NCBI GenBank assembly: GCA_900155495.1
Contig: FTLJ01000184.1
Coordinates: 56,452-120,451 of the forward strand
DNA length: 64,000 bases
Direction of reading: 5' to 3'
Source of the DNA: Porogramme epimiltina
Taxonomy: Eukaryota; Basidiomycota; Agaricomycetes; Polyporales; Polyporaceae
The first letter of the stretch is position 1, and every line of letters starts with the position of its first letter. The notes below the pieces were generated by a model. That model saw only the letters and a program-made list of their open reading frames with translations, made no database searches and had not been told where the DNA came from. This document shows, piece by piece, positions 118 to 34,567 of the stretch. A program made the position numbers and the translations under genes.

Positions 118-2290
118 TCAGCGAGTAGATCCGGCGTCATCCAACCAATCGAGGTTGACCTTTATGACTTTAAGACACGGTGACAACCTGGCAGACTTGA
201 AGATGACACTCTTCAGATCGAATGGTTCGCCGGTGGCCTGTGCATCATAATCAGCCTCGGAAGCCACGCCCTTAAGTAGCGAGACACAGACCATGAATAT
301 GTATCTCTCTTCCGGTCCGGTCGCCGTCTCGTCTGTCACCTACGCCAGCACAGTGCTGTCAGTTGCTCGTGGGTTGCCACGGACACTGTCGAGCGCACGC
401 ACCACTCCGATACCCCTCATGATGGCGTGCGCCATGGCTGAGAGAAGCTGCTTCCGCGGCCTTGACATGTGTGCTTCGTTCGTTGTGGTCCACACGGTGA
501 CTTGGCCTGTCTTCCGCAGCTGCCCCAATTTGTCCTGGGGCGGATCGAGCATGTGAGTGTCCCGTACGTGGTTGTGCGGCTTAGATGAACGATTGCGCCC
601 TCACATTAAAGCGGACTGCAGCCTTCATCTGCTTATCATCCTCTCCGAGCTTCCGTTCGTTGCGGGAGGTATCGAAAGCCGCCTCGTCGGGATCTCTGAG
701 ATCGTTCCCGGCCAACGCATCAGCCATGCTCATCTCGAACGATGTCTCCATAGTATAACTGCTCGGAGCGCCAGTGACCTAGAGAAGAAGGCGTCGCATT
801 AGTATCACACAGACGCGCGCTATATGGCCCGCTTACATTCTGGTCTTGAACAATCACTCGCAGAGGAGGTCTGGAGAGAGATGTGTCTGTGAAAGACGGA
901 GGCGGCTGCGATACGGCGGAGCCGTTCGTCTGCCTAGTATCCTCTTGACCAACGACGTTAGGATCGCAGTGGTCCGGAGTGGTAACCATCTATGAGGGCA
1001 CACACATATTAGTCATGAATAAGAAGTTAGTATATAACACGGACGGCGCTCATGCGCACCCGTTCGTCGGTCGAATGTTCACAAGTTGCAAGCTTATAAG
1101 CGATCTCCTCGGCAGCCTTAGAATGGGCTATGAACAGAGCTTGTAAGATGAGCTGGAAACCACGAGTCCATGGCACGGTGTTTCTATGAACTTCGTTCTG
1201 TAGTAGAGTCTATGCTCCATATGTGAGAGTTTGCCCGGCACTTGGTCGCATGTGAGCTCACGATTTGAGAGTGAGCGCTCTCGACATCACGACGCAGCGC
1301 GTCAGGGTGGATGATGTAAGTACGCTTCCACTCTTCCAACACGTGGATGAAACGGGCGATATGTTGGTTGAATTTGTTGAGGCTAGTCGCAGCCAACTCG
1401 CACTTTTGCCGACGTTCCACGGCATACCTAGAAACCATAATCCATGTCTCATACGTAGAAGCCTAGGAAGATGTAAGTGCTTGTCGCAGAGTGAATGTCT
1501 CGCGAATTGAGCTACCTTCGGCCCCGTCTTAGCTGTCAAACAGGAAAGGAGGGTCTCATCTCCCATGATGGCCGCGATGCTAGGGGCGACATCATCCCTC
1601 AATACAGCCATGGTCGGATTCACCAACTCGAAAGTCTATGAAGATGTCCAGTCGGTACATGTGCATAGAATTGGGTTGCCCACTGAATGTGCACAGGTAC
1701 TCACCAACCTCCAGAAGAGATTGTAGTCGATGATCGACGGATGACCCGGACAGAACAGTCTTTCCCACCAACTCTCTCCTCGGCTCCAAGCCTATAAAAT
1801 GTTGTTACTACCTCACCATGAGAACCGTCGAGGAAGGATCTCGTACCTTGAGCAGGGTACTCCGGTCAACCTTCAACCTGGCGTCCTGCGGAACATCGGC
1901 GTACGACTGCACGAAGGCGAGTATTGCGTCGAAGACTGCATTTTCACACAGGTCGTGGAAACCGCGAAAATCCTTGAAAAGGGAAGGGTAGTCATTGGTA
2001 TAGCCTGCGGCCTCCGAGGCATGTTTGAGCGTGTTCAATATACTAGAACAGACTTCTTCGGTGAAAATACAGCATCTAGGCTGAAGGATCTGCGTGTACT
2101 ATAGATGGTATGCGTGCGGTCAGCGTCGCGCCGTGAAGGTCCACTGCGTACGATACAAACTCACCTCGCGCACGACTCGATCAGGGACCGAGTCACCGCC
2201 ACGCTGAGATGGGGGATCAGGCTGTGTATTCGACTCGGGGTTCCGTTGACCAAAGGCTGCGCACAGAGGGACACAGTAGACGTTAGTCAT
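118..2290 (-). CDS. U2-A: unrecognised 11-exon gene, paralog A (516 aa)
   Basis: I do not recognise this family. Eleven exons join in phase 0 throughout: 2165-2290, 1847-2098, 1705-1791, 1516-1635, 1262-1462, 1060-1197, 837-989, 605-778, 403-534, 292-339 and 118-237, stop included. Every junction is GT-AG and aligns with the same junction in the copies at 12.5, 21.8 and 32.3 kb, which is the main support for the model. The first 300 residues look mostly helical. Exon 5 gives a heptad-like stretch around 'FNQHIARFIHVLEEWK'. The last 160 residues are the best conserved part and include 'MSRPRKQLLSAMAHAIM' and end with 'LPCLKV'-type sequence (here 'LSPCLKVIKVNLDW'). No signal peptide or clear membrane segment is seen. 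The Met start opens exon 1 in all paralogs. This copy has the most diverged N-terminal exon after D. It lies tail-to-tail with where an MDR gene would be, left of the window. Confidence 0.75.
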
Positions 2291-2334
2291 AGCTAGTAGG
2301 AATGAGATGAGAACTGAGAATCACAGAGAGCTCC

Positions 2335-2343
2335 TTTTAAATG
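2335..2343 (-). promoter_or_regulatory. TATA-like element upstream of U2-A
   Basis: On the minus strand the sequence reads ATTTAAAAG about 45 bases before the U2-A start codon. The position suits a core promoter. It differs from the element shared by copies B, C and D. Confidence 0.35.
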
Positions 2344-4440
2344 CCGGGTCTACGACATGTGGAGGATGGCATTACTACACCATGTCGCGAGCGGACTCGA
2401 GTCGGCACGTCCGAACCTAGGAGCGAAAGACGATCAGCGGTGTGACGACAGCCAATAGTCTTGGACAGGCGGGTGGAAAAGAAACCCGAGTGGGGCGGAT
2501 GTATGAAACGATTTATTCGCCGAACTTCGAGGGGCGACCTGATTGGGCAGATGGACGAGTGCGCGCCAGAAAGCCTGAAAAGAGTCGGAAGTGTCCAGCT
2601 CGGGCAATCGAGGGCAGTACCAGTTGGACAAGATATCTGAGACGGTGGGAAACCGGTGGAGGTCTTTGGGCCGTCGCCCGGTCGACGAAGCGAGTGGCCG
2701 GCCGGGGGCATCTTGGGAGCTTAAAAAGGACTTCAAGACGACGTCATCCAGCTAGAAAGAGACGCCGCTATCGCGGGCACTGCGGGATTATTCTGGCTAA
2801 TAGTGCCCCGGGCGATGGGCGGCATTCATAGAGAGCAATGATATTGAGCTCGGGGACGCACCTACGCTACCCCCTCGAGTCCTGAGCCTAGTCTCTCACC
2901 CTCGGCACCATCCCGCCTTGCGCCGTGGGCCCACGTGGCGGACGAGGCCCCTCGCGCAAACCGCGATGGCGATGTCAGGGTCGCCTACTACGGGGCTAAG
3001 CACGCCTCCCTGATCACCAGGCCCACCGTCACCGCCTATGGCCGGCCACCGCCTCGTCCGCGAGGGGACGGCTGTAGTAGCACTGAGAGTCTATTTGCTC
3101 CGACTCGACCCGGGCGAATCTCTGGTGGGTGGCTCGTGCCTGCCAATCAGATCCAGGCGCTTGTTCCCGCTCTCCCTCCGTGCCACTTGTCGTGCACTGT
3201 CTAATACGCTGTCGGACGGGGCGCGCGTCCGACTCGGTGCCCGTTCGCCGGACATCTCCGGCCGCGCTACTGCATATGAGCGCGGTCAATTGACTACCAT
3301 TGGGCCACCAGTTTGAATGCTATGGCACCGCCGCAACCGACGCAGAGGGAAGCCACCGGCGCTGTTAATTTCAATCCCATATCCAGCTTATCACCCGACC
3401 ACGCCGCGGTTTCGGTGCAGTAGGGCAAGCTCTGTGCATTCTGTCAGACTCTGCCAGTGTCAGACGCGTTATAGGTGCGATGACCCTCCCATGACAGGGT
3501 CCCGCCGGATGACATCCATTAAATCAACGCACCCATCATACTCACTGCCCACAGACCACTTGCCAGCGTCCTAGTACGCAATTCCAGCATAATGTTGCCC
3601 AGTCCGCAGCCGCAGCAGGAAGCCCACCACGCGCCCAACGCAGTCTTCATTCAGCGGTCTCTTCTTCATCTACTCACAGCTGTCTATTACATACACCCCA
3701 CCGATGCGCCCCCTCGTCCTTACGTCCTCAATCTTCCCGTCTGTTGTCGCCTCCTGTTAGTGTACGAGATTACGTATTGCGCGAGGTCGAATCACGACGC
3801 GCTGTAGCTTCCGGCATATTCCGTAGAAATTTTGTATTCTCGTTAGTGTCTCCTTACCTTACAAGTCGGCAGACTTGCAACGGACTTATCAAACAAGTTG
3901 ATCCAGTCAAGCGTAGTCCGTGACCAGCCGTTCGGAGCTCGAATCGGAAGTGAAAAAGCGGGTGTAAGTCGCCCCCAAAGCGGTCAAGTCGAACACGTTG
4001 ACACTCCGACAAGGCAAGTCCAAGTCAGGCGCAAGTTGGACTTGACTTAGAGGCCTGACTTGGCGGAGACACTAATTCTCATATATAAGACGCTTACGTA
4101 CGCTCCTGGTACGCGCTTATTCTTTGGCGTCCCTCACTTCCAGCTTCCCCGCCTATCTAGAACAAACTCGCCTTCCCTCCCGCCCGCTACGCCCATTGCC
4201 CGATCGAGCAAACCTACACCTCCCCCCTTGTCAATCGGACGCGAACCAATTGGGTAACAAGGTCGCGTTTGAAGATAGCGTCGCCACCCTACTATGCCAG
4301 CGTTCCCCGCGCCGCCCGCCCGCGCCGCCTGCCATGCGGCGCACGTGGCGCACGAGCCCCGTTCGCTCACGCAGGCGGCAGATATGAGGGGAGCTATCTG
4401 GGCTCGAACCGCCGCGCGGCTTTGTTCTTCTGGTACGCGC
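2344..4440. other. Intergenic duplicated block, no gene seen
   Basis: No supportable gene. At about 2680-2770 there is a segment (GTGGCCGGC, GGGAGCTTAAAAAGGA) that recurs upstream of U2-B near 14.94-15.0 kb and alone at 36.22-36.36 kb, so it is part of the old U2 upstream region. From about 3400 to 3780 the sequence matches blocks at 36.42-36.75 and 38.97-39.29 kb (shared TAATAGGTGCGA-like and ATTCCAGCATAA segments). Short open frames here show no family signal. Confidence 0.5.
3840..4060. repeat. AAGTC/GACTT-rich short-repeat block
   Basis: The motif AAGTC and its complement GACTT occur many times here, including CAAGTCCAAGTC and GGACTTGACTT in opposite orientation. Clustered short inverted motifs of this kind resemble the subterminal region of a TIR transposon. 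I could not find matching terminal repeats, so the element, if any, is not delimited. Confidence 0.4.
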
Positions 4441-4454
4441 CGCCGTCTCACCCT

Positions 4455-4790
4455 CCTCATCTTCGACGGCGCGCGGGGTGCCGTCCGAGTCTTCGGAGCG
4501 CACGTTGTCCACTGCAATGCGGTCTCCTGGGCCGCCGCCGTCCGGCTCAGCTCGTTCCTCGTCACACTAGCTAAACACGCACACCCCAGCCTGGCAGGCC
4601 CTCGTCTTCTCTGAGCACGACGCCGTTCGCGTCCGCGGAATGCTACACGTTGTCAATATCTGGGGACTCGGCGAAGTCACACAGGTGTGGTTGGAGGAGT
4701 GGTTCGAAGAGGACGTATTCAAGGGTCATACTCACAACAGGCATTGCCGCGTTTTCAGCCTCATCCCACACGCACTTGCGTGCTCACGTC
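4455..4790 (+). pseudogene. SEC13: SEC13 fragment (exon 6 region)
   Basis: This aligns with exon 6 of the intact SEC13 gene at 54.06 kb. Recognisable pieces are TCTTCGGAGCGCACG (matching TCTTCGAAGCGCACG), the GCGGTCTCCTGGGCC (NAVSWA) stretch, and the region encoding the G-x-G-E-x-T plus 'EEW' segment near 4660-4710. The frame is shifted and the flanking exons are missing. It is transcribed, if at all, as part of a repeat. Confidence 0.6.
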
Positions 4791-4983
4791 TCCGCGAACA
4801 TTAACGCGTCGCGGGGCCACAGGGAGCCCGCGACAGGCTGCCGGAATACTTTACACCACCCAGCCACGTGTTCAAATGCCGAAGTCTGCTCGTCCGTGTC
4901 CACGCTCAGGCAAATTGCGGGAGCTCGGCCTCGGGGGCCCGTTCGCACGCTCCGACGTCTCTAGCGGTACCGAACGATGCCGA

Positions 4984-5784: not shown

Positions 5785-5789
5785 TACGA

Positions 5790-6080: not shown

Positions 6081-6143
6081 TATCATAGCATATGGTCATC
6101 GTTCGCGTCAATATCTAGTGTGGTAACAAGCAGCGTACCTCCG

Positions 6144-8050
6144 TTATACTCTCTCTAAATGTAGTCGATTGTCCCCCAGTGCCAGCGGAACCTAGCTCAA
6201 TCACAGACGTAAGCTGGACGAAGCCATGTGTGAGTGTACCACCGACTAAGCCTTGAGAGGACACAGATAGCGCACCTGACCGCTCCTAAGGCCTTCGGCA
6301 CGCCGCTTGAACTCCATGCTCGGTAAAGCACCCGAAGAGTATTGTTGTCGCCTTTCGAGGGTATCGCGTATTGGCCCCGCCCGGGCATTGAGCGTCGCGA
6401 GGAGCGAGTTGACATACACTGTGGACTCTCAATCAGCAGGAGAGCACCACGGCCGGAGGTAAGGAGGGACGTACACTTGCTGTACACAAAATAGAACCCG
6501 AAATAGACGAAGTTTCCCGGGAGGGCAGTAAACTGCCGTGGCGATCTTCAGATGAATAGGGGTCATGCATGATGAGGGATTGGCGAGACGTACGGTGATC
6601 AGCGAAATCAGCGCGCACACGCTAGTCAAGAGGCCGGTGTTGATGGAGTACCTCATCAGGAGTAACACGACAGAGTCAGACCTGCGGAAATAGTTAATCG
6701 GACGTGTGTCTCATCACCACTGGGGGCGGTAGTGACGGTGAACTAGCCTTCCGACGCCGGTTACCATACTCTTCAGCAGCCAGCATTGAGAGACAGTGAC
6801 GATAGCGTCGGCAGCGAGGTCTACAGCCATACCCGTCCAGAAGCACCACTATGATATTCACTCATAAGTTCTCGTTGAGATTAATAGCAGGGATGGCCCT
6901 CATACCGAGAACTTGTGCACCTCGAAGAGAAGTTGCACGGAGAGCCTATGAGGGTAAACTGCATGAGTAAAGATCCGGGTCGTCAATGATTGGGACTCAC
7001 CCCTTGGCTGCAAAATCTGATATTGCGGGTGTGATTATTCAGTATGAGCTCAGGACATCGATGCCTCAGTCCGCTTACAAAACCCGTCGGCTGATTCCAA
7101 GTTAGACTCGATATTTAATGCATAGGGACAGGATTCTCACACATCGCGAAGAGAGATAGTCCGTTCTAGCGTGATTCAGTGAGCACAGGGGAAAGTGCGT
7201 AGTGAAATGCAATGCTCACGATGACGTATACGGGGATTACCCAATAGCCGCTGCTCACTGGGATGAGGGTCATTATTCCGACTATGTACATCCAGGCATT
7301 CTCAAACGTACGTCGCAGTATTCTTGCACTGAATATTCTGCCAGATAGGATCTGTAAGCCTGTCGTGCCGGTTGAGGACATGTGACCTCGACTCACGCTC
7401 GAACGAAAGTATTACTGACAAGCTGTACAATCGCGAATGACTGTCAACGCTGTGTGTGTATCCTATAAAGTGAAAGCTCTACCGAAACAACGACCATAGC
7501 CTGCACCGCAGTGGAGATCAGTGGTTTCTCCATTGGATAGATCGCGAAGGTGCTCACCGCTAAACTCCTATATCCGTCCAACATGAGCAAGCAAGAAGCT
7601 GTCAGCACAAGAAGCGACTTACCAGATGGGCCTCAGTACTCCAGTCAGATTTCCAAAATCAGTTACAAGGTATTGATACATAGTAATAGTTAAGAAAACC
7701 ATGTGGATCGTGTCAATGAGCCTATTATTGAGTGAGCGATAACGTCAGTTTATAACGAGAAGACGCCAACCATAAGCATAACACCGATCCACGGAGCATG
7801 GCCTCATCTGTGAACTGGTGACTGAAATACAGCCATGTCTGCAGGGTTGTAAGGCCGTAGAATCTAGTCGTGGCGCGTCAGCCGTACTGGGAGGCGCGAC
7901 ATAGACTGGTGGAACATACGCGCAAGTGACCGCGAATCCCAGGAACGTTGCGCCGAGAGTGCTATTCAAGTCGAGTGACATCAGCTCAGGAGGTATCTGG
8001 AAACCCGGACTACTGGCGTTGAAGCCAGGAACGGCGGGTAGAGATGTCAT
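6144..8050 (-). CDS. U1-B: DUF6534-like multi-span membrane protein, intact copy (about 330 aa)
   Basis: Exons: 7920-8050, 7771-7863, 7623-7721, 7558-7567, 7483-7500, 7397-7422, 7220-7337, 7001-7007, 6906-6958, 6748-6848, 6594-6681, 6475-6532, 6276-6418 and 6144-6191. All join in frame. The N-terminus has 'LNSTLGATFLGFAVTC', followed by 'YGLTTLQTWLYF' and 'LIDTIHM', and the C-terminal part has 'RYSINTGLLTSVCALI' and 'SKLYVNSLLATLNAR'. These are hallmarks I know from Agaricomycete DUF6534 proteins, predicted seven-helix membrane proteins of unknown role. Exons of 10, 18 and 7 bases are unusual but needed for phase. The intron after 6748 starts with GC rather than GT; copy D has GT there. The last exon is uncertain: reading on from 6276 instead stops at 6245. 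The gene lies head-to-head with the SEC13 copy to its right. Confidence 0.75.
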
Positions 8051-8985: not shown

Positions 8986-8989
8986 TGTC

Positions 8990-9970
8990 CCCGTTGAGTT
9001 GAACTAGCCTCCGTAACACTTACCCATAGGATCGTACATCTCTCAACACGCTTCAACCTCCTCTCAGCCGTCCTGACTCCTCCTCATCAGACCTAGCTGA
9101 ACGACTACGGGAAATGACTCGCAAACAGGCTCCCCTGATACCCGGTGAAAGTTTCCTACGTGGTCGACGGCGAGGCGCAGCGGTTTTGTGCTCTCATCAA
9201 GCCCTGCAAGTCTAATCCGGCAGTCCACCTAGGCACACGCGAAGTTCAGCCAGATTCTCTGGTTGCATTCGTGCGACCAGAGTGTCAGTCAGAAGGCGCA
9301 GTGCGGCGGGAAATCGGGCGCAGGTGGCTGGTCAAAGGTCAAGGAGCACACGCTTCTGGTACGTCAACAGCCCAAGTCATGGTCTATGTTCCTGACGCCT
9401 CCTAGTAAACCCAGCTTAATAGGCACCCTACTACACTATGAACTGGGTGCAATCCTCACCTATATGTCCTCAGAGAGTATCATCTCTTCCCTCACCTTCA
9501 AAAGTACGTCCCATACCTCTTAGTGTACTCATCTAAGCCCTATCCTTACTCAACCGTCTTTCTCCCGTTTCCGCCCCAAGTATGAAGCGCTTGGCCTTTG
9601 TTGCTCGCGTGGCTGCATCACTGCCGCGTTACAGGTGCGCTCATTCGCCTCCCTTCTCCCCACCTTCGGTCGTTTGAGGGGTGGGGCATCAGAAATGTGT
9701 GCTTACACGCTGTCGGCGTGTTGGCAGAATAAAACCATTCTCAACTGGATAAAAGACAAGCCCTCTGCGCCATCGCACAAGACCGTGCTCGATTCCGTCT
9801 CGTGGCCTATTGTCTCCGCGACAGGCAGGCTCCCCGACATCGTCTGGCGCGCCTAGTGGTCGCCCTCAGTTCCTCGCTGTATCCTGCGGTGACGCTGAGA
9901 TGGCTATGTGGAAGAAGGGCCTCAAAGGGCCTATTGGAGCTCGCGTGAGCGAGGTGGCGAGTTAGGGGTA
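8990..9970 (+). pseudogene. SEC13: SEC13 pseudogene, copy B
   Basis: This follows the exon order of the intact gene from exon 3 (CTACGGGAAATGACTCGCAA, matching YGKRLAT) to the last exon (AAGACCGTGCTCGATTCCGT, then the region of the final stop near 9963). Exon 3 has lost bases, exon 4 is frame-shifted, and most of exon 6, including the second and third quarter of the propeller, is deleted. The 3' flank GGGACTTTCAAGGAACCGCGGA matches the flank of the intact gene. It cannot give a WD40 propeller. Confidence 0.85.
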
Positions 9971-10556: not shown

Positions 10557-12059
<1,503 letters not shown>

Positions 12060-12472: not shown

Positions 12473-14693
12473 TCACCGACTAGATTGGGCGCCGTCCGGC
12501 CAATCGAGCTTGACCTTGATGACTTTAAGACACGGTAACAACTTGGCAGACTTGAAGAGGACGCTCTTCAGATCGAATGATTCGCCGGTAGCCTGTACAT
12601 TATAGTTGATCTTAGAAACCATGCATCCTTGGCAGGACACACGAACCATGATGATGTATCTCTCTTCCGGTCCTGTGGCTGTCTCGTCCTTCGTCTAGTG
12701 GGCCAGCACGGTGTCATTAGTTACTCGTTGACCACCACGGACGTGGTAGAGCGCACGCACAACTCCAATACCCTTCAGGATGGCGCGCGTCATGGCTGAG
12801 AGAAGCAGCTTCCGCGGCCCTGACATGTGAACTTGGTTGGCCGTGGTCCACACGCTGATCTGGCCTGTCTTCTGCAGCTGCCCCAGTTTATCCTGTGAAA
12901 GATCAACAACGTGAGCATGAGTACGGAGGTTGTTGCGCCGGCGGAGCGGAGGATTACACCCTCACATTGAATTGAATGGTAGCCTTCATTTGCTTGCGAG
13001 CCTCTCCAAGCTTCCGTCCGTTACGAGAAGTGTCGAAAGCCGCCTTGCCGGGGTCCTCAAGCCCGTTCCCAGTCAACGCGTCGGCCATGTTCATTTCGAA
13101 AAATATCTCCATGTCATTACCGCTCATGGTGCCAGTAACCTACAGAAAGCGACATCGTATTAGTAGTGTCATAGAGACGCGCCGTTGCAACTCTGTGCAG
13201 TCTACATACTTGCTGGTTCCGAAAAGTCACTCCCGGCGGAGGTCCGAAGCCAGAAGGGCCCGAGCAAGATGAAATCGGGTGCAATACATCGAAGCTGTTT
13301 GCCCTCAAATGCTCTACCATGCTAGTGGTGCAGGAATTTAAAACAGTATTCATCTATCCCGATGCACGCGTATTAGTCGTGAACAAGGAGCCAGCGAATA
13401 ACGCATACGAAACCCACGCGTACCCGTTCGTCCGAATGTTCACGATTCAAAAGACCATCAACAATCTGCTTTGCAGTAGAATGGGCGATAGACAGGACTT
13501 GAACGGTGAGCTGGACGCTGCGAATCCATGATCCAGTGTTCCGAAGAATTTCGTTCTATAGCAGAGTGTTGCGCCATCATAATTTGCTCGGCACTTGATT
13601 GCGTGTGGACTCACCATTTGGGAGTGAATATGAGCACTCTCGACATGAGGTGGTGCGCCAAGCGAACCAGCGACAGTCTCCCGTTCTTCCAACCTGCAGA
13701 TGAGGCTGTCGATACCTCGCCCGAGTCCGTCAAGATTCTCTGCAGCCGAATCGCACTTTTGCAGGCAATTCACGGCATATTGGTGAATCGTGGTCCATGT
13801 CCCATCATGCGTAGAGCCCTAGGAAGATATGAGTGCTTGTTGTAGAGCGATAATGTCGCGAATGAGGTACCTGCGGCCCGGTCCTGGCCATCAGATGAGC
13901 AAGGGGTGTCTCATTCTCCATGACGGCCGCGATGCTAGGGGCAATGTCGCCCTTCAACACAGCCGCAATCTTTGACAACTCCGACATCTGAAAAGCAAAA
14001 CGCTAGGTTATGGAATGCTTATGTCGCTTCCTGAACCCGCTCAAAGACTTACCATCTTCTTGACAAGATTCAGGTAGTTGGAGCAATCTAAGGACGACAG
14101 AGGATCAGGAGAGATCATTGTGTCCCACCGCATTTCCCCGTGGCTCGAAGCCTGGTGAGCTCCATTACTACCACTCTGAGACCACGAGGGTTGTCAAGGA
14201 AGGAGTTCGTACCTTGATCCTGTCAATGTTTTGAGAGCTATCCTGCGTACCGGCGCGCGACTGCACGAAGGCAAGCGTTGCACTGAAAGCAACCTCTTCC
14301 CACAGATCACAATGACCACGAAAGTCGCTCAAAAGGGAAGGTCGGGAACTTTCATGGCCTGCAAGTGTCAAGGTACGCTCGGTGACCTCATTCACTCTAG
14401 AACGGAATTGTCCGTAGAACGTTGGGCCGCTACCTTGAAGGATGTGCGAGTACTACAGATAGTATACGCAAGGTCAACATGAGTCACACGGAGATCAACA
14501 AAGCATACAAACGGACCTCACGCACAACCTTCTCCCAAAGGGGTGTCGCGAGATCGGAGGCCAAGTCGCCGGCGCCCTGAGTGGGGGGTACATGCGGTAC
14601 GAGACTAGAGTGCTGGACCTGCTCGGTAGGGGCACTCGAGGGGGTCCGTTGACCTAAGCTCGCGCATGGAGGGGCACTGTAGAAATAGGTCAT
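12473..14693 (-). CDS. U2-B: unrecognised 11-exon gene, paralog B (528 aa)
   Basis: Exons: 14517-14693, 14213-14452, 14053-14151, 13871-13987, 13615-13818, 13424-13555, 13210-13353, 12966-13139, 12761-12892, 12647-12694 and 12473-12592. All are phase 0 and open. It is clearly the same protein as U2-A, C and D: the N-terminus has 'PSSAPTEQ' and 'PLWEKVVRE', exon 2 'GHCDLWEE', exon 5 'NLDGLGRGIDSLI', exon 8 'NMADALTGNGLEDP' and exon 9 'DKLGQLQKTGQISVW'. At exon 6 a donor candidate present in copy C (GTGAAC) is TTGAAT here, but the downstream donor CGG|GTACGC keeps the frame and exists in every copy. Exon 7 uses CAA|GTATGT, shifted three bases from copy C. These compensated changes argue for a working gene. 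Function unknown. Confidence 0.78.
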
Positions 14694-14766: not shown

Positions 14767-14769
14767 TCT

Positions 14770-18039: not shown

Positions 18040-18350
18040 ATCTCTCAACACTCTTCAACGCCCTCTCAGCCATCCTCCTCATCAGACCCAGCTGAACTCC
18101 TACGGGAAATGACTCGCAACAAGCTCCTCTGATACCCTGGTGAAATTTTTCGACCTAGTCGACGGCGATGCACAGCGTTGTTGTGCTTCATCAACTGCCA
18201 TGCAAGTCTAATCTAGCAGCCCGCGCAGACACACGCGAAGTTTAGTCAGGTTATCTAGGCACATTCGGACAACTAGAATGTCGTTCGGAAGGTGCAGCCC
18301 TGCTGGAAACTGGGCGCGGGCGGCTGGCCAAAGGTCAAGGAGCACACGCA
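18040..18350 (+). pseudogene. SEC13: SEC13 5' fragment, copy C
   Basis: Covers exon 3 (CTACGGGAAATGACTCGCAA) and part of exon 4 up to GGTCAAGGAGCACACGC. It then stops abruptly and continues as intron 1 of the MDR gene at about 18355. The frame is broken (CTCCTCTGATACCCTGGTG instead of the SSDRTVK codons). Everything from SEC13 exon 5 to MDR exon 1 has been deleted. Confidence 0.75.
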
Positions 18351-20138: not shown

Positions 20139-21330
20139 AGGATCTATCGTCCCTGGCGAGACTGTTGTGTACGATGAGTCGCAGACGATTGACCTTGACG
20201 CCGTCTCACTGGAAGGCGGTGTGCTGCTCAAGATGCTTTCGTTCCTGGTCGATCCAAACCTTCGCCAACAGGCGAATGATCTAAAAAGGTCACAGTCTGA
20301 GGAGAGCGTAGCAAGTTCCTTAAGTTCACTGTTTCCTATTCCTCCGCTGACCCCCACCCCACCCTTCCCGTTATAGGAACCTCTGGCGCCTGGGGAACAG
20401 TGAGCACATACACTCCACAACGCTGTGCTTCTAAGAACGGACATCCCCGGACAGGATAGAGAACAGGGGCGTGGGAGTCGTACTTCGCTCTGTGAAACAA
20501 GGAAGGTCTTCCGTGGCTGGCGTATCTAGGCGTCCTTGGTATGACTGGCATGACCGCACACTATGGGTGGGAGGGTTTGTGCGACCGAAAGTGAAGAAGG
20601 TGCGTCTCTGTGCAATCATCCATAGGATCACAGTGCTCATAACAGCCCAGGGTGATGTGTTCGTCTCAGACGCGTCTAGAGCTGTCGGAGCGTGAGTGTT
20701 TGCTTTACACACGTTGTTTGGAACTTCTTCCAACTGTGCACCCTCGCAACGTCGTCGTACAAGTCGCGAAGTTGGCCGGATGCAAGGCCATCGTGTTCGT
20801 GGGCTCAGACGCGAAGGCCGACTACGCATCTTCCTTCGGCGTGGACGTCGCATTCAATTACAAGACTGCTTCGATCAAGGAAGTCCTTGAAAAGGAGGGC
20901 CCCCTCAATTAGTGCGTACGTTCTTCCGCATTGCGATCGCGTATGTCGCTCATGATTTTCCTAGTTACTGAGATAATGTTGGTGGAGCAACGCTCGAGGC
21001 TGCTACAGACTTCGCTACCCCACACTCCCGAATCATTGTGCGTTCCACTTTGCTTCCTTCTTATCCACACCGTAGCTCACCACAGTCATATGACGCACGA
21101 ACATCTCAACTCACAACAACGCGGAACCGTACAACGTGAAGAACCTGCAGTTGTGATTGTGGAAGGAGATCTGCATGTACGGCTTCCTGGTGTTTACGCT
21201 CACGAAGAGCGGACGATGCCTGCGCGAGTCGTGCGTGGGGCATATCGTGCCCGAGCTTGAGAACGTGCCTCAGGGTATCGTGGACCTGCAACTGGGTAAT
21301 AGGGGTGGTGGTAGATGCAGATGAGTAGAT
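20139..21330 (+). pseudogene. MDR oxidoreductase pseudogene, copy C
   Basis: Aligns with exons 2-9 of the intact gene at 10.56 kb. Exon 2 is nearly open. A deletion joins the end of exon 4 to exon 5 out of frame near 20.50 kb. Exon 9 has a stop in the leucine-rich part (GTTGTGATTGTGG near 21.15 kb) and deletions after 21.20 kb. Exon 1 is missing, and the intron 1 acceptor lies on the far side of the transposon (18355-18387). Not functional. Confidence 0.85.
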
Positions 21331-21769: not shown

Positions 21770-23992
21770 TCACCAAGTAGATTCTGTGTCGTCCGGCCAA
21801 TCGAGTTGGACCTTGATAACTTTCAGACACGGTGACAACTTGGCAGACTTGAAGACGACGCTCTTCAGATCGAATGGTTCGCTAGTGGCCTGTGCATCAT
21901 AGTCAGCCTTGGAAGCCATGCTCTTGGGAAGACACGAACCATGATAATGTATCTCTCTTCTGGTCCTGTGATCGTCTCGTCTTTCGTCTAGGACGCCAAC
22001 ACAGTGCCGTCAGGCACTCGTTGGCTGCCACGGACGTTGTCGAGCGTACGCACCACTCCGATTCCCCTCATGATGGCGTGCGCCACGGCTGAGAGAAGTG
22101 GCTTCCGCGGCCTTGACATGTGAACTTGGTTGGCCGGGGTCCATACGGTGACCTGGCCTGCCTTCTGCAGCTGCCCCAGTTTATCCTGGGAAGAACCAAG
22201 CATGTGAGCATTCGGTAGGTGGTTGTTCTGCCAGGATGGAGGATTACACACTCACATTGAAGTGGACGGCAGCTTTCATCTGTTTATGATCCTCTCCGAG
22301 CTTCCGTCTGTTGCGGGTAGTATTGAAAGCTGCCTCATCGGGATCCTTGAGGCCGTTCCCGGTCAACGCATTGGCCATGTTCATTTCGAAAGACGTCTCC
22401 ATCTCGTTATTGCTCTGAGTGTCGGTAACCTAGAGGAAGGGGCATCGCATTAGTGTCACACCGAGACATGCCGTTGCAGCCCTATATGCGCCACTTACCT
22501 TGTCTTGAACAATCACTCCCAGCGGAGGCCCGAAGCCAGATGTGTCCGAGGAAGACGGGGGCAGGTACGATGTAGCAGAGCTGTTAACCTGCATATCGTC
22601 TTGACCAACAACGTTATGGTCGTAGCGGTCCGGAGCAGCATCCATCATGATCTAACCCGATGCACACGTGTTAGTCATGAACAAGGAGCCAGCGTATACC
22701 GCATACGACACCCATGTACACCCGTTCGTCCGAATGTCCACGGTTCACAAGGTCATAAGCGATTTTCCCTGCAGTAGAATGGGCGATGGAAAGGACTTTT
22801 ACAGTGAGCCGGACACCGCGAATCCATGGCTCAGTGTTTCGAAGGACTTCGTTCTATAGCATAGCAGAGTATATGCGCGTCAAAACTCGTCCAACACTTG
22901 GGTGTGCGTGGACTCACCATTTGAGAGTGACCATGAGCACTCTGGACATGACTCGGTGTGCCAAGTGAAATAGCGAAAGCCTTCCACTCTTCCAACGTGC
23001 GGATGAGGCTCTCGATATCTCGCACGAATCTGTCAAGATTCTCTGCAACCGAATCGCACTTTTGCCGGCATTGTGTCGCATACGAGTGAATCGTAGTCCA
23101 TGTCCCATCATGCGTAGAAGCCTAGGAAGACGTGAGTGCTTGCCGTATAGAGATAATGTCGCGAATGAGGTACCTCCTGCTCCGTTCTAACCGTCAGATG
23201 GGAAAGGGGGCTCTCGTCATCCGTGATGGCCGCGATGCTAGGGGCGATATCGCCCTTCAAAACAGCCGCGATTTTTGCCAACTCGAAAATCTGAAAAAAA
23301 AGTCGGGTCATGAAGTGAGTGCGTTGCCCAATGAACGCACATAAAGTCTTACCAACTTCTTGAAGAGATCCCGATAGTTGGAACTATATAAGGACGACAG
23401 ATGACCAGGAGAGATCATCGTGTCCCACCATATTTCCCCCTCCCTCCAAGCCTGGAAATTGCTGTTACCACTCCCCAGAGTCCACAAGAACAGCTGAGGA
23501 AAGGGTTCGTACCTTGAACAGGGTGCGCCTGTCAATGTTCTGAGGGTTATCCTGGGTACCGGCGCGCGGCTGAACGAAGGAAAGCACTGCGCTGAAAACA
23601 GCCTCTTCCCACAGATCACAGTGACTACGGAAATTCCTCAAAAGGGAAAGGCGGGGATCATGCTTTGCAAGCCTCAAAGTGGGCTCGGTTGCGTTCACTC
23701 TGGAACAGAATTGCTCGTAGAACGTCTGGCCGCTCTCTTGAAGGATGTGCGTGTACTGTAGATAGTATGTGCGCGGTCAACGTCACGCGGAGGTCCACAT
23801 AGTATAAGTATACAGACGTACCTCACGCACAACCTTCTCCCAAAGCGGCCTCGCGATATCAGAGACGAAGTCGTCGGTGCGCTGAGTGGGCACATGCGGT
23901 GCTAGTGGGTATTGGGCCTGCTCGGTGGGGGCACTCGAGGGGGCCCGTCGACCGAAGCCCGCGTATGGAGGGGCACTGTGGAAATCTGCCAT
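21770..23992 (-). CDS. U2-C: unrecognised 11-exon gene, paralog C (530 aa)
   Basis: Exons: 23822-23992, 23513-23755, 23353-23451, 23174-23290, 22918-23121, 22722-22853, 22499-22651, 22256-22429, 22054-22185, 21940-21987 and 21770-21889. Every junction is GT-AG and phase 0. This is the cleanest copy. Visible features are a Pro-rich N-terminus ('PSSAPTEQAQYPLAPHVP'), 'ARPLWEKVVRE', a tryptophan-rich exon 3 ('WREGEIWWDTM'), a probable coiled segment in exon 5 ('NLDRFVRDIESLIRTLEEW'), a Ser-rich linker in exon 7, and the conserved tail with 'NMANALTGNGLKDPDEAAF' and 'MSRPRKPLLSAVAHAIM'. For exon 6 a second donor 27 bases upstream would give 521 residues. I do not recognise the family. The neighbour on its 3' side is the broken MDR copy C. 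Confidence 0.8.
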
Positions 23993-24040
23993 GGGGATGA
24001 AAGTGAGAAACTGGGCAGAGCGCTGGGCAGGGGGCGAGAC

Positions 24041-25590: not shown

Positions 25591-26710
25591 CGCGTCATCA
25601 TTCATGACGTCAAATGGGTCACGTGTCCTACGCCCATGAATTTCGCTTGCAAGTTGCGACCGACGTCTCCCCACCACCCATCGACTCTCGAGATTCGGGA
25701 CGCCGACGTCCAGGACTCCCAAACAATAGGAGCTTGTCTCGCGTTTAGCACCCTCATCTCGGCGGACATCTACGCAAACCCGGCATAATGCCCAACAAGA
25801 AATAACTTTGGACTCGCAATGGGCACTTTGGATAAACGGCGACTCAAGGTCTTCGAATTCAACGTGGTGGACGCCGGAGGGTGAGGCGCAGTGGCTGAAT
25901 GGGCACATACGCAAGGGGTATGTAGTGTATCATCTGAGTATACTGTATTCTCTAACGCAGCGTGCCCTCGCAGACGCGCGCGGACAGTCTAGTAGTAGGT
26001 TGCACAGGCACATCCAAAATTCCTTGCGGCGGGAGGGGATGTCATCTGGAAAGCACACCAAGGGCGAAGTCTGGGCGCCGGTGGGTGATTGGAGGTCAAA
26101 GAGCATATGGTTCACAAAGATTCAGGTACGTGTCAACAGTCCAGATCCTGGTTTATGTACCTAACGCTCCCCCTGTCAACTCCGTTCCATCGGCAACCTA
26201 TGGGTAGTGTGCAATCCTCGCTCGTGCGTTCTCGTAGGGCCTCCCTATCTTCACGTCAAAAGTACGTCCTTACATCCTCTAGTACACCAACCTATGCATT
26301 AGTCTTCCGCGACTGTCTCCTTCCCTCCTCTCCCGTCAACACACACCGCCATTTCACCCTCCCCACAGCATTTGCCTACCCCTCGCATCCCCGAACGATA
26401 GCACCTAGGCCACCCACGTCTCCGAAGCGCACGCCATCGACTACAATGCCGTCTCCTGGGTCCCCGCCATCCAACCCAGCTTGCTCCTCGCACCCCAGCT
26501 ACATACGCACCCCGTCCAGGCCCCCGTCTCCGCCATGGGCGCGATGCGGCTCGTGTCCGCTGAATGCTACACGTTGTCAAGATCAGGGGCCCCGGTGAAG
26601 CCACGGCGGAGTGGTTGGAGGAGTGATTTGAAGAGGGCGTGTTCGAGGACCATGCTGACTGGGTCGTCGACGTCGTGTGGGCGTCCAACATCGGCCTCCC
26701 CAGGTGCGTT
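25590..26710 (+). pseudogene. SEC13: SEC13 pseudogene, copy C/D
   Basis: Begins with the exon 2/intron 2 region, has exon 3 remnants (GTGGTGGACGCCGGAGGGTGAGG with an in-frame stop), exon 4 and the intron 4 sequence near 26.12 kb, and exon 6 from about 26.38 to 26.70 kb (GTCTCCGAAGCGCACGCCATCG). It ends at the exon 6 donor CCCCAGGTGCG. The last exon is absent. Several shifts and stops make it non-functional. Confidence 0.8.
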
Positions 26711-26714
26711 TTTT

Positions 26715-27060: not shown

Positions 27061-27061
27061 A

Positions 27062-29025
27062 TTATAGCGTTTGGTCATCGTTCAAGTCAACCTCCAATGT
27101 TGTACAGCGAGCTCACCTCCGTTGCAATTTCTGGGGATTGAGTCGATTGCCCCCAAGTGCTGGCGGAACTTAGCCCAACCACCGACGTAGGCTGCGCGGA
27201 GCCATCCGTGAGCGTAACATTGACGGAGCATGTACAGCATACACGGAGCGCACCTGACCACTCTGAAGGGCTATTTCTCGCGTCTTGAACGCCATGCTCG
27301 GCAAAGAATACGAAGGGCGTTCTCGTCGCCCTTCAAGCGTGGTTCGCACCGCCCCGGCCCGTGCATTGAGCGTTGCGAGGAGAGAGTTGATATACACTAT
27401 AGGCTGCAAATGAGCACCCGCAAGTGTGACACTCTGGGCAGCGAGGGACGCACGCTTGCTATACACGAAGTAGACCCCCAAATAGACGAAATTTCCTGGG
27501 AGGGTAGTGAACTGCGGTGGCGATCCTCAGATAAGTACGAGTCACGCGCAATGAAGGATTGGCGAGACGTACGGTAATCAACGAGATCAGCGCGCACACG
27601 CTGGTCAAGAGGCCGGTGTTGATGGAATACCTCATCAGAAGTAACACCACAGAGTCAGACCTGCAAAAGCGGTGAATATCGCATTTGTCTCGTGGTCACC
27701 AGAGGCCATAGACACGAGACACCGACCTTTCAAGGCCAGTGACCATCTGTCTTAATAGCCAACATTGAGAGACAGTGACGATCGCGTCGGCAGTGATATC
27801 TGCAGCCATACCGCTCCAAAAGCACCACTACGGTATAAACTCGTGAATTCTTGGTGGAATTAACAACGGGGATGAACCTCGTACTGCGAACTTGTGCACC
27901 TCGAAGAGGATAGGAACGAAGAGTCTGTAAAGGTGGAATATGTGGGTCAAAATTCGCTTTGTGGAATGGTGTTGACTCACGCCTTCGCTACAAAATCTGA
28001 TATTGTGAGTGCGACTATTTAGTACGGGCTTGGAACATCGACGTATTCAGCCCGCTTACAGAAGCCATCACCTAATCGAAGTCAGACGTCACTTTTAGCA
28101 CATGAGGACGGGGGTCTCACACATCGTGGCAAAAGAGAGCCCGTTCTGGCGCGATTCAGTGAGCCCAGGGGGAGGTTTCGTAGCGAGAGGCGGAACTCAC
28201 AATGACGTATACGGGGATCACCCAATAGCCACCGCTCACTACCGTGAGAGTCATTATCCGGGCAATGTTTGTCAAGGCGGTCTCACACGTACAACGCAGT
28301 ATTCTTATACTGTATATTCTGTCAGACAGAGTTTGTTAGCCTATCATCCGGGTTTGGGAAAGGAGGTGATGAGTCACTCACGCTCGGACGAAAGTGTTGC
28401 TCACAAGCTGCATGAGTGTCAGCGCCCTGTGCGTATCACTTGGTGCTGGAAACTTACCGAAACGACAACCATTGCCTGCGTCGAATTGTGTCTCAGACGT
28501 GTCGTCGTTGTGCGGATCGAAAGGGTGCTTACCGCTAAGCTCCTATACATGCGCAGCATGAGTATTGTCATCGGTTCGAGGCAGAGGTGCGCCTCACCAA
28601 ACGGGCTTCAGTACACCGGTGAAATTTCCAAAATCAGTTACAAAATACTGATACATGGCGATGGTCAAGAAAACCATGTGAATCGTGTCAATGAGCCTAC
28701 CGTTTGGTAAGCGACAATGCCTGTCTACGATGAAAGGCTGCTCACCATAAACATGACACGGATACGCGGAGCACGGTCTCGCGGGGGAACCGGTGACTGA
28801 AATATAGCCATGTCTGTAGGGTCGTAAGGCCGTAGAAACTAGTCGCGGTACGTCAGTCATATTGAAAGGAGGGATGTATACTGGGGAAACCTACGCGCAA
28901 GCGATTGCGAATCCCAGGAACGTTGCGCCGAGCGTGCCATTCCGGTCGAGTGACATGAGTTCAGGAGGTATCGGGAAACCTGGACTGCTGGCGTTAAAGC
29001 CAGGAATGGTCGGTAGAGATGTCAT
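27062..29025 (-). CDS. U1-D: DUF6534-like membrane protein, possibly decaying copy
   Basis: Starts at the same methionine as U1-B ('MTSLPTIPGFNASSPGF'). 'GTLGATFLGFAIACA', 'YGLTTLQTWLYFSHRF', 'LIDTIHMVFLTIAMY', the 10-base exon GAGCTTAGCG, 'GGYWVIPVYVI', 'WCFWSGMAADITADAI', 'MRYSINTGLLTSVCALI' and 'INSLLATLNARAG' all sit in frame at the positions expected from U1-B. Two problems: the 7-base micro-exon plus the following exon (ending 'FEVHKFA') do not add to a full number of codons here, and the final acceptor before the last codons (at about 27.08 kb) is weak. It may be a recent pseudogene or use a different splice site. Role unknown, expected in a membrane. Confidence 0.6.
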
Positions 29026-29880: not shown

Positions 29881-29984
29881 GTGTGCGTCAACGATCAACT
29901 CGAGATCAAGTTCCAGGACGCCGGGTAGACGCGGTAAACCCGAACCGGTTCGGCTCATCATGGATGAGTCGAACCAGCCTCGTC

Positions 29985-30690
29985 AATGCCTGCTTGCCTT
30001 CGAAAGTACGTCCCCGCACTTTTAGTGTCATAACCCATGTGTTGGCCTTATACACCTGTCTTTTCCCTACTTCTCCAGTCGACGCCTGCCTCACTCTCGC
30101 CAACCCGTCGCGTTCACAGACAATGGCCCTTAGGGTACTGAGGTCTTCAATGGGCAAGCAATCATGCCATTAGTCACAACGTAGTCACCTGTGCTCCGCC
30201 AACCAGTCAATCAGCCAAATACTTCTCCATCTAGGCCCCCGCCTTTGCCTCGAGCATGAAGCGGTTTGCGCCCGCGGGATGCGACAGCATAGTCAAGATC
30301 TGGGGCTCCGTGGCCCATGCGCTTGCATCGCTGCCGTGTCGTGGGTACGCTTATTCACCTTTCTTCTCCACATCTTCCCACCCTCGCCAGTGTGATGGTA
30401 GGGAAGGAGTATCGAGGACACGTGCTTACGAGCTGCCGGCGCGTTTGCAGGACATCGTCATTCTCATTTCACCCCAAGACAGTCCTCGCTGCACCATGGC
30501 ACAATACCCACGTTTGACCCCGCAACGTTCGACTCCGCATCGGATTCCGTCTTCTCATGGCGTACAGGCTCTCCGACATCGTCTGGCGCGTTTAGTGGTC
30601 GCTTGCGGGCAACATCCCCGCCGTAACCTCAGGCAGCGGCAAGATGATGATGTGAAAGAAGGGCATGAAGGACGTATGGCAGCGAGAGAA
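29985..30690 (+). pseudogene. SEC13: SEC13 pseudogene, copy D
   Basis: The 5' region jumps straight from the upstream flank to intron 5 (TTCGAAAGTACGTCC), so exons 1-5 are lost. Exon 6 starts again near 30.24 kb with 'MKRFAPAGCDSIVKIWGS', aligned to '[18 protein letters not shown]' of the intact gene, then breaks. The last exon is shifted and ends near 30.69 kb (GAAAGCTAGGAG). Not functional. Confidence 0.8.
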
Positions 30691-30694
30691 AGCT

Positions 30695-31300
30695 AGGAGC
30701 AGAGTGGGGGCAGAGGAGCTGCGGACGGTTTTAGCACGTCAAAGGCAGGATTGGAAGCTACACGAACAGTGCGTACGTCGATATATATTGTCATCATAAC
30801 GTCTGTCCCTGATGCACGGTACAGGTGGGCGACCTAAGTCACGTTCGGCATGATATGCCCACTTCAGATCATCTATCATTATGTGTTAGTCGTCCCAGCG
30901 TCCAACACCTCTTTCCTCCGGCAACACCACCTCTACCGTAGTCCTCTAGGACCGGCTCACGATGTTCATCACATCCCGAGGTTCGCCGATTTCGTCATAT
31001 CGCACCCTAGGAAGATCGAGCTCCCCATCCCACCCGAGGCCCGATAAAGACGCTGATGATAAAGCAATACGGAGACCTGGTCATGAATTAATAAGCTCGA
31101 GGCGGCCCGCGCAGGCTACAATTGTGGCAGGTCAGGGCTACGTGCAAGCACAGAGTGCAGTGCAGGATGAGTGTATAGAGGATTAACAGAGTAGTGCTGT
31201 GGGGGTTCGGTATGTTCAGTCTTTCTTCGCTTTATGAAGACTAGCATTCGCTCAACTCGACTCGCCTCAGAACCTCTGGGTTCGCCGCCTTCTCCCACCA
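30695..31300. repeat. Spacer P, copy D
   Basis: Matches 9.97-10.56 kb. It contains the degenerate TATA position and the 5' untranslated part of MDR copy D. No gene seen. Confidence 0.45.
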
Positions 31301-31759
31301 TGACCCCAATGAAGAACGGGTGCATCGTATTCATGAAGTACCCCGGCTTAGGTAATGTCTATGCCGCACCCATCATGCTTGCCGTCGCTGACCCGATGTC
31401 ACAGAACACATCGTCCCTGGAGAGACTGCCGCGTACGATGAGTCGGGGACAGTTGTCCTTGGCGCCGTACACAGAACTGCGACAGCATCTCGACGTACAA
31501 CACCGCGGAGCCGTACAACGTGAAGAACCTGTAGTTGCCGTTGTAGAGGGGGATTCATATCTACGGCTTCCTGGTGTCCACGCTCACGAAGAAGTGGGGC
31601 GATGAGTTATCCCAGATGATACCCGCGTGGGTGGCGAGTGGGGAGATCGGGTACATGGAGCGCGTCGTGCGTGGGTTAGAGAACACGCCACAGGTGACCG
31701 TGGACATGCGTCTGTGGGATAACTTTGGGAAGTGTGTCTTGGTGGTTGCAGACGAGTAA
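31301..31759 (+). pseudogene. MDR oxidoreductase internal-deletion pseudogene, copy D
   Basis: Exon 1 is intact ('MTPMKNGCIVFMKYPG') with its donor, and intron 1 keeps an acceptor. Exon 2 breaks off at GTTGTCCTTGGCGCCG and is joined to the start of exon 9 (AACTGCGACAGCATCTCGAC). Exons 3-8, about 1 kb of the intact gene, are gone. Exon 9 is then open to its normal stop ('STLTKKWGDELSQM', 'GNFGKCVLVVADE'-like end), but the junction puts it out of frame with exon 2. Confidence 0.85.
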
Positions 31760-32312
31760 CCGTGATGCACTTCGTAGAGGTTGGGGACAGAGTCCACTGG
31801 CAAATGTAATACTGTATGATTGACATTACTCAGCTACATGTCGCTGACTCCTGGCTGTGACTGACTAGTCGTACTCCTATGGCAAGGATGCGTGGCAGAC
31901 TTCTGAAGTCATAGCTGTGTATCTCAACGAACGTAATATTGTAATATCTAGGATAGTTTTCGAGGTAGTAGAATCCGGCCGATGAAGTTGAGGTGGTCTC
32001 GCACCCCGCGCATCGTTGTAGGAAGGCTAAGCAGCCTGCTCTATGTCCCGGAATGCTGAGCAAGCTGCAACAAGCTTGACTCCCTTCTTATGAGAAGTGA
32101 TGTTATAGTGTAGTGCCTATAATTGTTGAAATTCGCTTCCAAATCTCTGACGTTATTTCTTCTAGTCACGTGCCCTATTGTCCCAATCATCAGAGAGGCG
32201 GGGGTTATGACACTGCTTTCGTAAGACTACCGGAGATTAGCAACACAGATCTCCGAGACTACAACATGTAATAGCACTGGCCATGCACATCAACACACGG
32301 TCACCCAGTAGA

Positions 32313-34567
32313 CTAGGCGCCATCCGACCAGTCGACCTTGACATCTATGACTTTAAGACACGGCAATAGCTGAGCAGACCTGAAGAAGACACTCTTCAGG
32401 TCAAATGCTTCGCCAGAGGCCTGTGCATAGCAACAGGCGTAATCAGTCTCGGAAGCCACACATCCTTGGCGGGACACACGAACCATGAATATGTATCTCT
32501 CCTCCGGGAGTCCGGTGACTCTCTTGTCTTTCGTCTACGTCGGCCACACGTTCAATACCGTCAAGTATTCTCAGTCACTCACTGGCCGCCACGGACGTTG
32601 CAGAGAGCACGCACCACTCCGATTCCCGTTAAAATGGCACGCGCGATGGCCGATAGAAGTTGCTTCCGCGGCCTTGACATGTTGACTTTGTCAGTAGTGG
32701 TCCAGACGTTGACCTGGCGCGTTTTCTGAAGCTGTCCCAATTTATCCTGGAGAAAACCAGGCATGTGAGTGTTCCGTAGGTAATCATGCCGCCTAGACGA
32801 AGTGTTAAACTCTCACATTGAACCGAACGACAGCCTTCATCGGTTTACTATTCTCTCCGAGCTTCCGTACATTACGGGAAGTATCGAACGCTGCTTCTCC
32901 GGGATTCTTGAGCCCGTTCCCGGTCAACACATCGGCCATATTTATCTCATAAAAGGTCTCCATCTCAATACTCCTTGGAGGGCCAGTGTTCTAGAGAAGG
33001 AGGTTTCGCATTAATGTCACACCGAGGCACACTGTTGCAGCCCTGTACAATCTACATACCTGTTTCGGAAGCGTCGCCCCTGACAAGGACCCGAAGCCAG
33101 ACGCGCCCGAGCAGGATAGGGGAGGGCGCAACGCGTTGAAGCTGTTCGCCTGGAAATACTCTTGACCGCCCACGCTGGTGTCGCGGGGAGCTGAAGTAGC
33201 ATCAATCTATGTCGATGCACGCGTATAAGCCGCGCAGAAGGGGCTAGCCATATAGCACAGATCACGCCCATGCTCACCCCTGCGCCCGTCGAATGTTGAC
33301 AATTCACAAGGTCACAAGCAATCTGCCCAGCGGTAGAATGGGCAATAGAGAGGGCTTGTGTGGTGAGCTTGAGACCACGAATCCATTCTACGGTCTTTTG
33401 GAGAACCTGGTTCTGTAGCAGAGTATTTGCGATGTCAGAATTTGCCCGGTACTTGGTCGTTTGTGTGCTCACCATTTGGACGTGACTATGAGCACCCCTA
33501 ACGTGATACAGCGCGCTATGTTGACCGGCGAAAGCAGTCCACTCTCCGAAGATGTTGATGAGACTGTTGACATACTGTTCGAATTTACGAAGGTTATTTG
33601 TGGCCAGATTACACATTTGCTCGCATTTCATGGTGTATTGGTGAATTGTTTCCCTCGACCTATCCGTATAAACCTGCGATGCTGTGAGTGCTTGTCGCAG
33701 AGAGATGACGTCTCAATATGAGCTACCTCCTTAGCCGACGAATAAGAAGGAGGGCTCTCAGTCCGCGCAATGGCCATGATGCTCTTGGCAACGGGTCCAT
33801 ATAATATGTGCAAGGTGTCTTCGAACCCAGACATCTGAAACGACGTTAAGTCCATACATGTGAATGACATTATGCGACACGATGAATGCACACGAGGGCT
33901 CACCAACGCTCGGAAGATATAAAGACCGTTAAGATGATGTCCTACCCACGGACAGCTAGGATAGAGTGTATTGAGAGGTTGAACTGTTCTATCAAACCAG
34001 ATCTCCCCTTCCTTACGAGCCTAGAAAGTATTATCACTATGTGCGTCACGGGAAATATTGGGACTTACCGCAATTAGGTTGTCAAAGTGAGAAATCTCGG
34101 GGTTGAATGACGAGAGTTCAGGAGGCCTGTGATAGTCTTGCACAGGCCGAGCAGTGATCGAGTCCACGAGGTTAACTGTTACCTTTACCACCACATTTGA
34201 CCATAAAGCAATGCAGTCGGCGAAGTGCGTGATAGAAAATTTGACGGAGCTGAGGTCGATACCCGCCGCCGCTAACTCAGCATTGACTCGTTGAAGGTAT
34301 ATTTGGTTTGTTGGAGTTGGAAAGATGTTCTTGTACTACATGGAGTATATGTGCAGTTAGCGGCGTGGGGGTTCACAGTGTGCACGAGCGTACCTGCTGC
34401 ATAACCTCCCTACATTGCGATGTCGCGGAATTGGAGTCCGAACAGTCGGCGTGCTGGGTCAGGGGCACACGAGGTGCAAGCAGGTGCTCGGCATGCTGCG
34501 CAGGAGCACTTGGGGGCGACCGCTGACCGAAGTCGGCCCATGGAGAGGCACTGCAGAGATGAGCCAT
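32313..34567 (-). CDS. U2-D: unrecognised 11-exon gene, most diverged paralog (537 aa)
   Basis: Exons: 34394-34567, 34069-34335, 33904-34020, 33727-33834, 33473-33673, 33278-33412, 33060-33206, 32817-32990, 32615-32746, 32484-32534 and 32313-32420. All are phase 0 with GT-AG borders. Exons 1-4 share little sequence with the other copies beyond length and a few anchors ('FGQRSPPSAP', 'EGEIWF'), yet remain open. Exons 5-11 align easily ('IAHSTAGQIACDL', 'DKLGQLQKTRQVNVW', 'MSRPRKQLLSAIARAI'). A TAG four codons early shortens the C-terminus. Being open over eleven exons despite this divergence is strong evidence for selection on the protein. Exon 5 uses a CATCGCAG acceptor; the CACTCACAG just before it would bring a stop. 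Confidence 0.75.

Follow-up and report, generated by a model that had tools for sequence, protein, structure and literature searches.

What keeps a tandemly repeated gene open in every copy when it carries no domain that can be recognised? The question is raised by a 64,000-nucleotide stretch of the Porogramme epimiltina genome (G000:C150:56452-120451; hereafter the window), the right-hand part of contig C150 (120,451 bases) in an assembly of 41.9 Mb and 926 contigs. Four copies of an orphan gene family that we call U, labelled U1 to U4, lie inside the window and a fifth, U0, lies outside it, all on the minus strand. Orphan families are common in fungi, mostly short and hard to prove real. The five diverged U copies provide an internal test that needs no outside homologue, since selection can be measured in each copy. 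From the sequence evidence below, U is likely to be a protein-coding, lineage-restricted family, constrained in its C-terminal module and loose at its N-terminus, that was multiplied in an old cassette together with a DUF6534 gene.

The gene models were built by reading a five-way alignment site by site, with splice sites sought as GT-AG. Each of U1–U4 consists of eleven exons separated by ten phase-0 introns of 48-80 bases, and has one stop, at its end. U1 (118..2290; 521 aa) has exons at 2290-2165, 2098-1847, 1791-1705, 1635-1516, 1462-1262, 1197-1045, 989-837, 778-605, 534-403, 339-292 and 237-118. U2 (12473..14693; 533 aa) has exons at 14693-14517, 14452-14213, 14151-14053, 13987-13871, 13818-13615, 13555-13409, 13353-13210, 13139-12966, 12892-12761, 12694-12647 and 12592-12473. 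For U3 (21770..23992; 535 aa) they are 23992-23822, 23755-23513, 23451-23353, 23290-23174, 23121-22918, 22853-22707, 22651-22499, 22429-22256, 22185-22054, 21987-21940 and 21889-21770, and for U4 (32313..34567; 541 aa), the copy with the most diverged N-terminus, 34567-34394, 34335-34069, 34020-33904, 33834-33727, 33673-33473, 33412-33266, 33206-33060, 32990-32817, 32746-32615, 32534-32484 and 32420-32313. The original prediction of four loci with eleven phase-0 GT-AG exons is thus borne out at the same coordinates, on the minus strand. Its gene ends also agree with ours; its codon counts (516, 528, 530 and 537) are five or six lower than a recount that includes the stop (522, 534, 536 and 542). 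U0, found by a DNA search of the genome and modelled from the same alignment, lies ~10.7 kb upstream at G000:C150:45844-47910 (window-equivalent -10607 to -8541). It is open over ten exons: an in-frame deletion (C150 ~46.34-46.58 kb) spans intron 7 together with the 3' part of exon 7 and the 5' part of exon 8, and what is left of the two exons reads as one open exon.

All 49 modelled introns of the five copies have GT-AG borders, and 35 of the 49 contain CTNAY within their last 45 bases. In U1–U4, exons 8 and 9 measure 174 and 132 nt, exon 10 has 48-51 nt and exon 11 has 108-120 nt; these lengths differ only by whole codons, as had been claimed for the conserved half of the gene. A simple comparative gene finder, under the strict requirement that a column be open in all copies at once, recovered only part of the model, four exons beginning within exon 8. 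Phase 0 runs through all ten U introns, unlike the adjacent DUF6534 genes as judged from exon lengths, and we found no explanation for it. Shortly 5' of the start codon, three of the five copies (U0, U2 and U3) carry ATAAAG followed by GTACGCCAG, a possible core promoter. The introns were also considered as mobile introners, an idea we rejected: introns at different positions do not match one another once the shifted numbering of U0 is allowed for, and none has a match elsewhere on the contig.

The U exons contain no stop in any of the five copies. When a U3-like ancestor was evolved neutrally along the fitted tree in 200 runs, exons 1-7 acquired a mean of 32 stops over the five copies (fewest 19) and exons 8-11 a mean of 8.3 (fewest 2). 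With branch lengths halved, exons 1-7 still acquired 20 stops (fewest 9). Insertions and deletions (indels), counted over all ten pairs of copies, which are not independent, and with 12 border-crossing cases set aside, have lengths divisible by three in 102 of 114 exon cases versus 40 of 106 intron cases. The frames are therefore open beyond neutral expectation, as the original prediction had it: every one of the 200 simulations of exons 1-7 gave at least 19 stops, and exon indels come predominantly in threes. We judge U to be a genuine protein-coding family, all five copies of which have kept their frame and exon-intron structure.

To see where selection acts, we estimated the ratio of nonsynonymous to synonymous substitution rates (dN/dS). 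Pairwise values (NG86) among the copies are 0.46-0.58, and the maximum-likelihood (ML) value for the whole gene is 0.62 (twice the log-likelihood difference, 2dlnL, 46.8 against a ratio of 1). The ratio is 0.31 in exons 8-11 (~157 codons; 2dlnL 70.5), 0.78 in exons 1-7 (~380 codons; 2dlnL 9.8) and 0.72 in exons 1-4 (2dlnL 9.2), each against 1. The picture is similar when the fast copy U4 is left out (0.65 for the whole gene, 0.81 for exons 1-7, 0.95 for exons 5-7 and 0.33 for exons 8-11). On single branches, exons 8-11 have ratios of 0.32 (U0), 0.34 (U1), 0.40 (U2), 0.33 (U3) and 0.24 (U4), with 2dlnL of 5.7-23.6 versus neutrality. As estimated here, purifying selection on residues is located in exons 8-11, in each copy separately by nominal branch tests, and in exons 1-7 the frame is kept while residues appear almost free. 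Because exons 1-7 lie upstream of the constrained C-terminus, stops and frameshifts are excluded over the full length. A dN/dS near 1 over all exons, named beforehand as one outcome that would speak against the family, is excluded by the ML fit. That the family is kept by selection on its protein is supported, with the refinement that selection on residues sits in exons 8-11 and leaves the residues of exons 1-7 nearly neutral. Tests for positive selection detected none, with M2a versus M1a giving 2dlnL of 0.69 for all exons, 0.35 for exons 1-7 and ~0 for exons 8-11; the 59 sites listed in exons 1-7 were dismissed as candidates, the dN/dS of their site class being only 1.08.

Several observations weigh against a functional, correctly modelled U family. 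Neutrality is not rejected for exons 5-7 (dN/dS 0.82, 2dlnL 2.5), nor on any single branch for exons 1-7 (0.66-0.97, 2dlnL <=3.75), which leaves residue-level function unsupported for two thirds of the protein. The five branch tests of exons 8-11 are nominal, and the weakest (U2, 5.66) fails correction for five. The 49 of 49 GT-AG borders are partly a product of construction, the models having been drawn by seeking such sites, and a few splice sites are displaced by some codons from the homologous column. Splicing is least certain for intron 10, because its length is divisible by three and it is stop-free in four of the five copies (U0, U1, U2 and U4); reading it as coding would put U3 out of frame. 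Lastly, the piece covering exons 9-11 was predicted at a mean predicted local distance difference test (pLDDT) score of only 37.8, and no fold supports a function. In U4, intron 5 (within 33266-33673, minus strand) is likewise divisible by three and stop-free, and, like intron 10 of U0, U1, U2 and U4, could be retained in some transcripts.

The U proteins have 502-541 residues and isoelectric points of 5.9-8.5. Their hydropathy maximum over 19 residues is 1.18-1.40, with no strongly hydrophobic stretch and no obvious N-terminal signal, and on these grounds the protein is probably soluble and intracellular. Exons 5-6 of U4 were predicted as two long helices (mean pLDDT 61.1; the piece includes 20 intron-derived residues).

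We then asked whether U has relatives. Of the 7995 candidates that the five-copy alignment found among 5.8 billion proteins, none reached E <= 0.01, and of the 338 found by a consensus of the 155 most conserved residues, none reached E <= 1; these searches reach annotated proteins that share 5-residue words with the query. The absence is informative because polypore proteins are well represented in the collection: of the named proteins among the at least 120 matches listed for a HET-domain gene in the window, most come from Ganoderma, Epithele, Dichomitus, Earliella, Trametes and similar fungi and a few from ascomycetes, which makes a polypore the most likely host. Epithele, Dichomitus, Earliella and Trametes belong to the Polyporales, as does Ganoderma according to PMC8955403. 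The best E values in profile searches were 0.039 (Pfam), 0.068 (NCBIfam) and 1.1 (PDB), all from weak single matches that were inconsistent between copies or insignificant and were dropped. At E <= 10, none of the U proteins, U0 to U4, matched PF20152 (DUF6534) or PF06985 (HET). Elsewhere in the genome there was no significant relative among the best candidates, the ones that were scored in the whole-genome searches, and the literature searched held no published account of the family. The proposal of an undescribed family without a known domain thus stands for Pfam, NCBIfam, PDB, the 5.8-billion-protein set and the fungus's own genome, and as far as these searches reach, U is to be regarded as lineage-restricted. 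A transposable-element origin was considered and rejected, all copies being on one contig in one array and without a Pfam domain.

The spacing between neighbouring U copies in that array is 9.3-12.4 kb. We found neither a sixth copy nor a U relic among the best-scored candidates in the genome or, with a hidden Markov model search included, on the contig. The U tree, which totals 3.4 substitutions per codon across five copies, is nearly star-like, with internal branches of 0.02-0.03 versus terminal branches of 0.10-0.50, and the duplications therefore appear old and close together in time, each copy having diverged separately since. Exon 2 of U4 is 44-50% identical to that of the other copies, like introns 1 to 3 of U4 at 48-64%.

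Between the U copies lie DUF6534-type genes, copies of a medium-chain dehydrogenase/reductase-like (MDR) gene on the opposite strand, and SEC13-like pieces. The DUF6534-type genes, T0–T4, number five, and every one of them scores above the cut-off for PF20152. All five are open over ten exons assigned by hand (the comparative gene finder over-split this model), with a dN/dS of 0.35 (2dlnL 101). Two have window coordinates on the minus strand: T3 at 6270..8050, where small exons between 7220 and 6944 were not placed, and T4 at 27248..29025, each with its ten assigned exons open. The minus-strand order is U4, T4, U3, U2, T3, U1, T2, U0, T1, T0; U3 has no adjoining DUF6534 copy, and T0 lies beyond T1 with no U between them. 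At ~37582-38229 and 40402-41365 there are 3' fragments of DUF6534 with no accompanying gene, and the genome holds 84 DUF6534 matches at E <= 1. Two families, U and DUF6534, and not one, are thus read as kept in the array.

The other neighbours have fared differently. The contig carries six MDR copies, five of them broken or fragmentary with at least one stop. On the plus strand of the window, the copy beside U2 (10661..12056) gives stop-free matches, the relic beside U3 (20140..21294) contains stops, that beside U4 (31472..31756) is a C-terminal part with two stops, and an N-terminal fragment at 47653..47778 has one. MDR relatives occur on contigs C323, C290 and C472, including a tandem minus-strand group at ~44-60 kb of C323 (loci L022 and L025-L028). 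No U relative accompanies them in the ten loci examined on these contigs, and neither U nor DUF6534 relatives were seen in the stretches examined by the C323 group. The contig has 11 clusters of SEC13-like relics, and in nine of these one or more matches contain a stop; some matches cross introns, so that single stops should not be over-read, and the query sequence was in part approximate. Eight clusters are in the window: one with stops at 9085..9929 (plus strand) and others near 4420-4732, 18059-18348, 25760-26704, 30163-30628, 37418-37501, 39989-40323 and 45815-46952. An apparently intact SEC13-like gene with WD40 domains at 54181..55516 (plus strand) is their possible source. The description of the neighbours as wrecked is accurate for the SEC13-like relics and for five of six MDR copies, and fails for the MDR copy at 10661-12056 and the SEC13-like gene at 54181-55516. 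With one stop-free MDR copy and five open DUF6534-type genes, the wider claim of an otherwise decayed array does not hold.

Two HET-domain genes also lie in the window. One is a single open frame of 829 aa at 57407-59893 on the plus strand (Pfam HET E 2.6e-12); the other, at 43228-44499 on the minus strand (E 6e-13), seemingly runs on out of frame at 42414-43472, which would fit a frameshift. The regions that hold the two genes partly repeat each other in inverted orientation. The HET-domain family is strongly expanded in this genome of 41.9 Mb, with at least 150 matches, the number scored among 364 candidates.

How else might these observations be explained? One account makes the open frames an artefact, neutral repeats into which short introns were fitted so as to skip stops. 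The freedom that short introns allow, their selection as GT-AG and phase 0, and the near-neutral residues of exons 1-7 lend it something. Against it, the splice sites occupy homologous positions across the five copies apart from a few whole-codon shifts, exon and intron indel lengths are sharply unlike, exons 8-11 reject a dN/dS of 1, and no simulation of exons 1-7 approached zero stops; we regard it as strongly disfavoured and very improbable. A different doubt concerns novelty. Rather than being a new gene, U could have branched from a known family and evolved so fast that sequence no longer reveals its relatives. Its rapid change over the five-copy tree and the dependence of the protein search on common 5-residue words fit such a failure of homology detection, and the closest HET relative among the matches listed shares only 54% identity, such that very close species may be absent from the collection. 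Even the 155 most conserved residues found nothing at E <= 1 among their 338 candidates, however, and the profile searches were consistent across copies for nothing; we hold the two possibilities to be evenly balanced.

The main rival for why the U copies exist is that it was the DUF6534-type gene whose copy number was favoured, U riding along in the cassette and then being kept because each copy had gained a use or was not yet lost. DUF6534-type copies alternate with U along the contig and are the better conserved (dN/dS 0.35 over ten exons, versus 0.62 for whole U), which is why the original suggestion that U copy number is itself favoured was not borne out: the DUF6534-type gene could be the favoured one. 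Yet the pairing is irregular, DUF6534 fragments exist without a gene while no U fragment was found, and the separate branch of each U copy shows constraint. We give such hitchhiking an appreciable, though minority, probability. An allorecognition (heterokaryon incompatibility) role is unlikely. It would be suggested by the two HET-domain genes on the U contig and by Neurospora crassa, in which, according to PMC10684091, the majority of the lineage-specific genes near telomeres are found in clusters with 61% of the HET-domain genes. The HET neighbourhood carries little weight here because such genes are very common in the genome, and both are at least 9 kb from the nearest U copy. Allorecognition genes often show positive selection, and none was detected in U.

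Among known systems, U resembles the Neurospora orphan genes of PMC10684091 in lacking a recognised domain, in restricted distribution, in local duplication and in having HET-domain genes in the region; it differs in belonging to a basidiomycete and in being large, intron-rich and demonstrably constrained copy by copy. Tandem birth-and-death families likewise form head-to-tail arrays and mix live genes with relics, whereas U has five live copies and no relic that we could find. The DUF6534 proteins share with U a common array, five open copies and a kept frame, but they are a membrane family with genome-wide matches, and U has no such hydrophobic segment and no detected sequence relation to them. 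PMC12842992 proposes the seven-helix DUF6534 (PF20152) proteins as a new class of fungal G-protein-coupled receptors, enriched in Polyporales.

Returning to the reading of U as a coding family multiplied in a cassette, we suggest that the ancestral unit comprised U, the DUF6534-type membrane-protein gene, the MDR enzyme gene and SEC13-like pieces. Copies would have been made early and close in time as parts of this cassette; afterwards each U and most DUF6534 copies would have been kept, and most MDR and SEC13 pieces would have decayed. The C-terminal module (exons 8-11) would be the functional part, most likely in binding or as an adaptor, and the mostly helical, fast-changing N-terminus may set specificity or serve as a mere spacer. 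Tentatively, U might act as a signalling or recognition partner, its diverged copies each having a slightly different task. A bolder proposal, which we consider improbable, is that U and the seven-helix protein form a two-gene receptor-partner module multiplied as a cassette, in which the C-terminal module of U would work together with the receptor, or with the receptor's signalling chain, and each copy would owe its own partner or trigger to the drifting N-terminus.

As one more tandem family without a known role, U is ordinary; it is notable for the internal functional test that its copies allow. Selection maps to one module of ~157 codons, with two thirds of the protein nearly unconstrained, and this gives expression, structure and deletion work a defined target. 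The array also ties an orphan family to the poorly understood receptor-like DUF6534 proteins, which PMC12842992 describes as enriched in polypores. Should the receptor-partner module prove true, U would be the first dedicated partner of this orphan receptor class.

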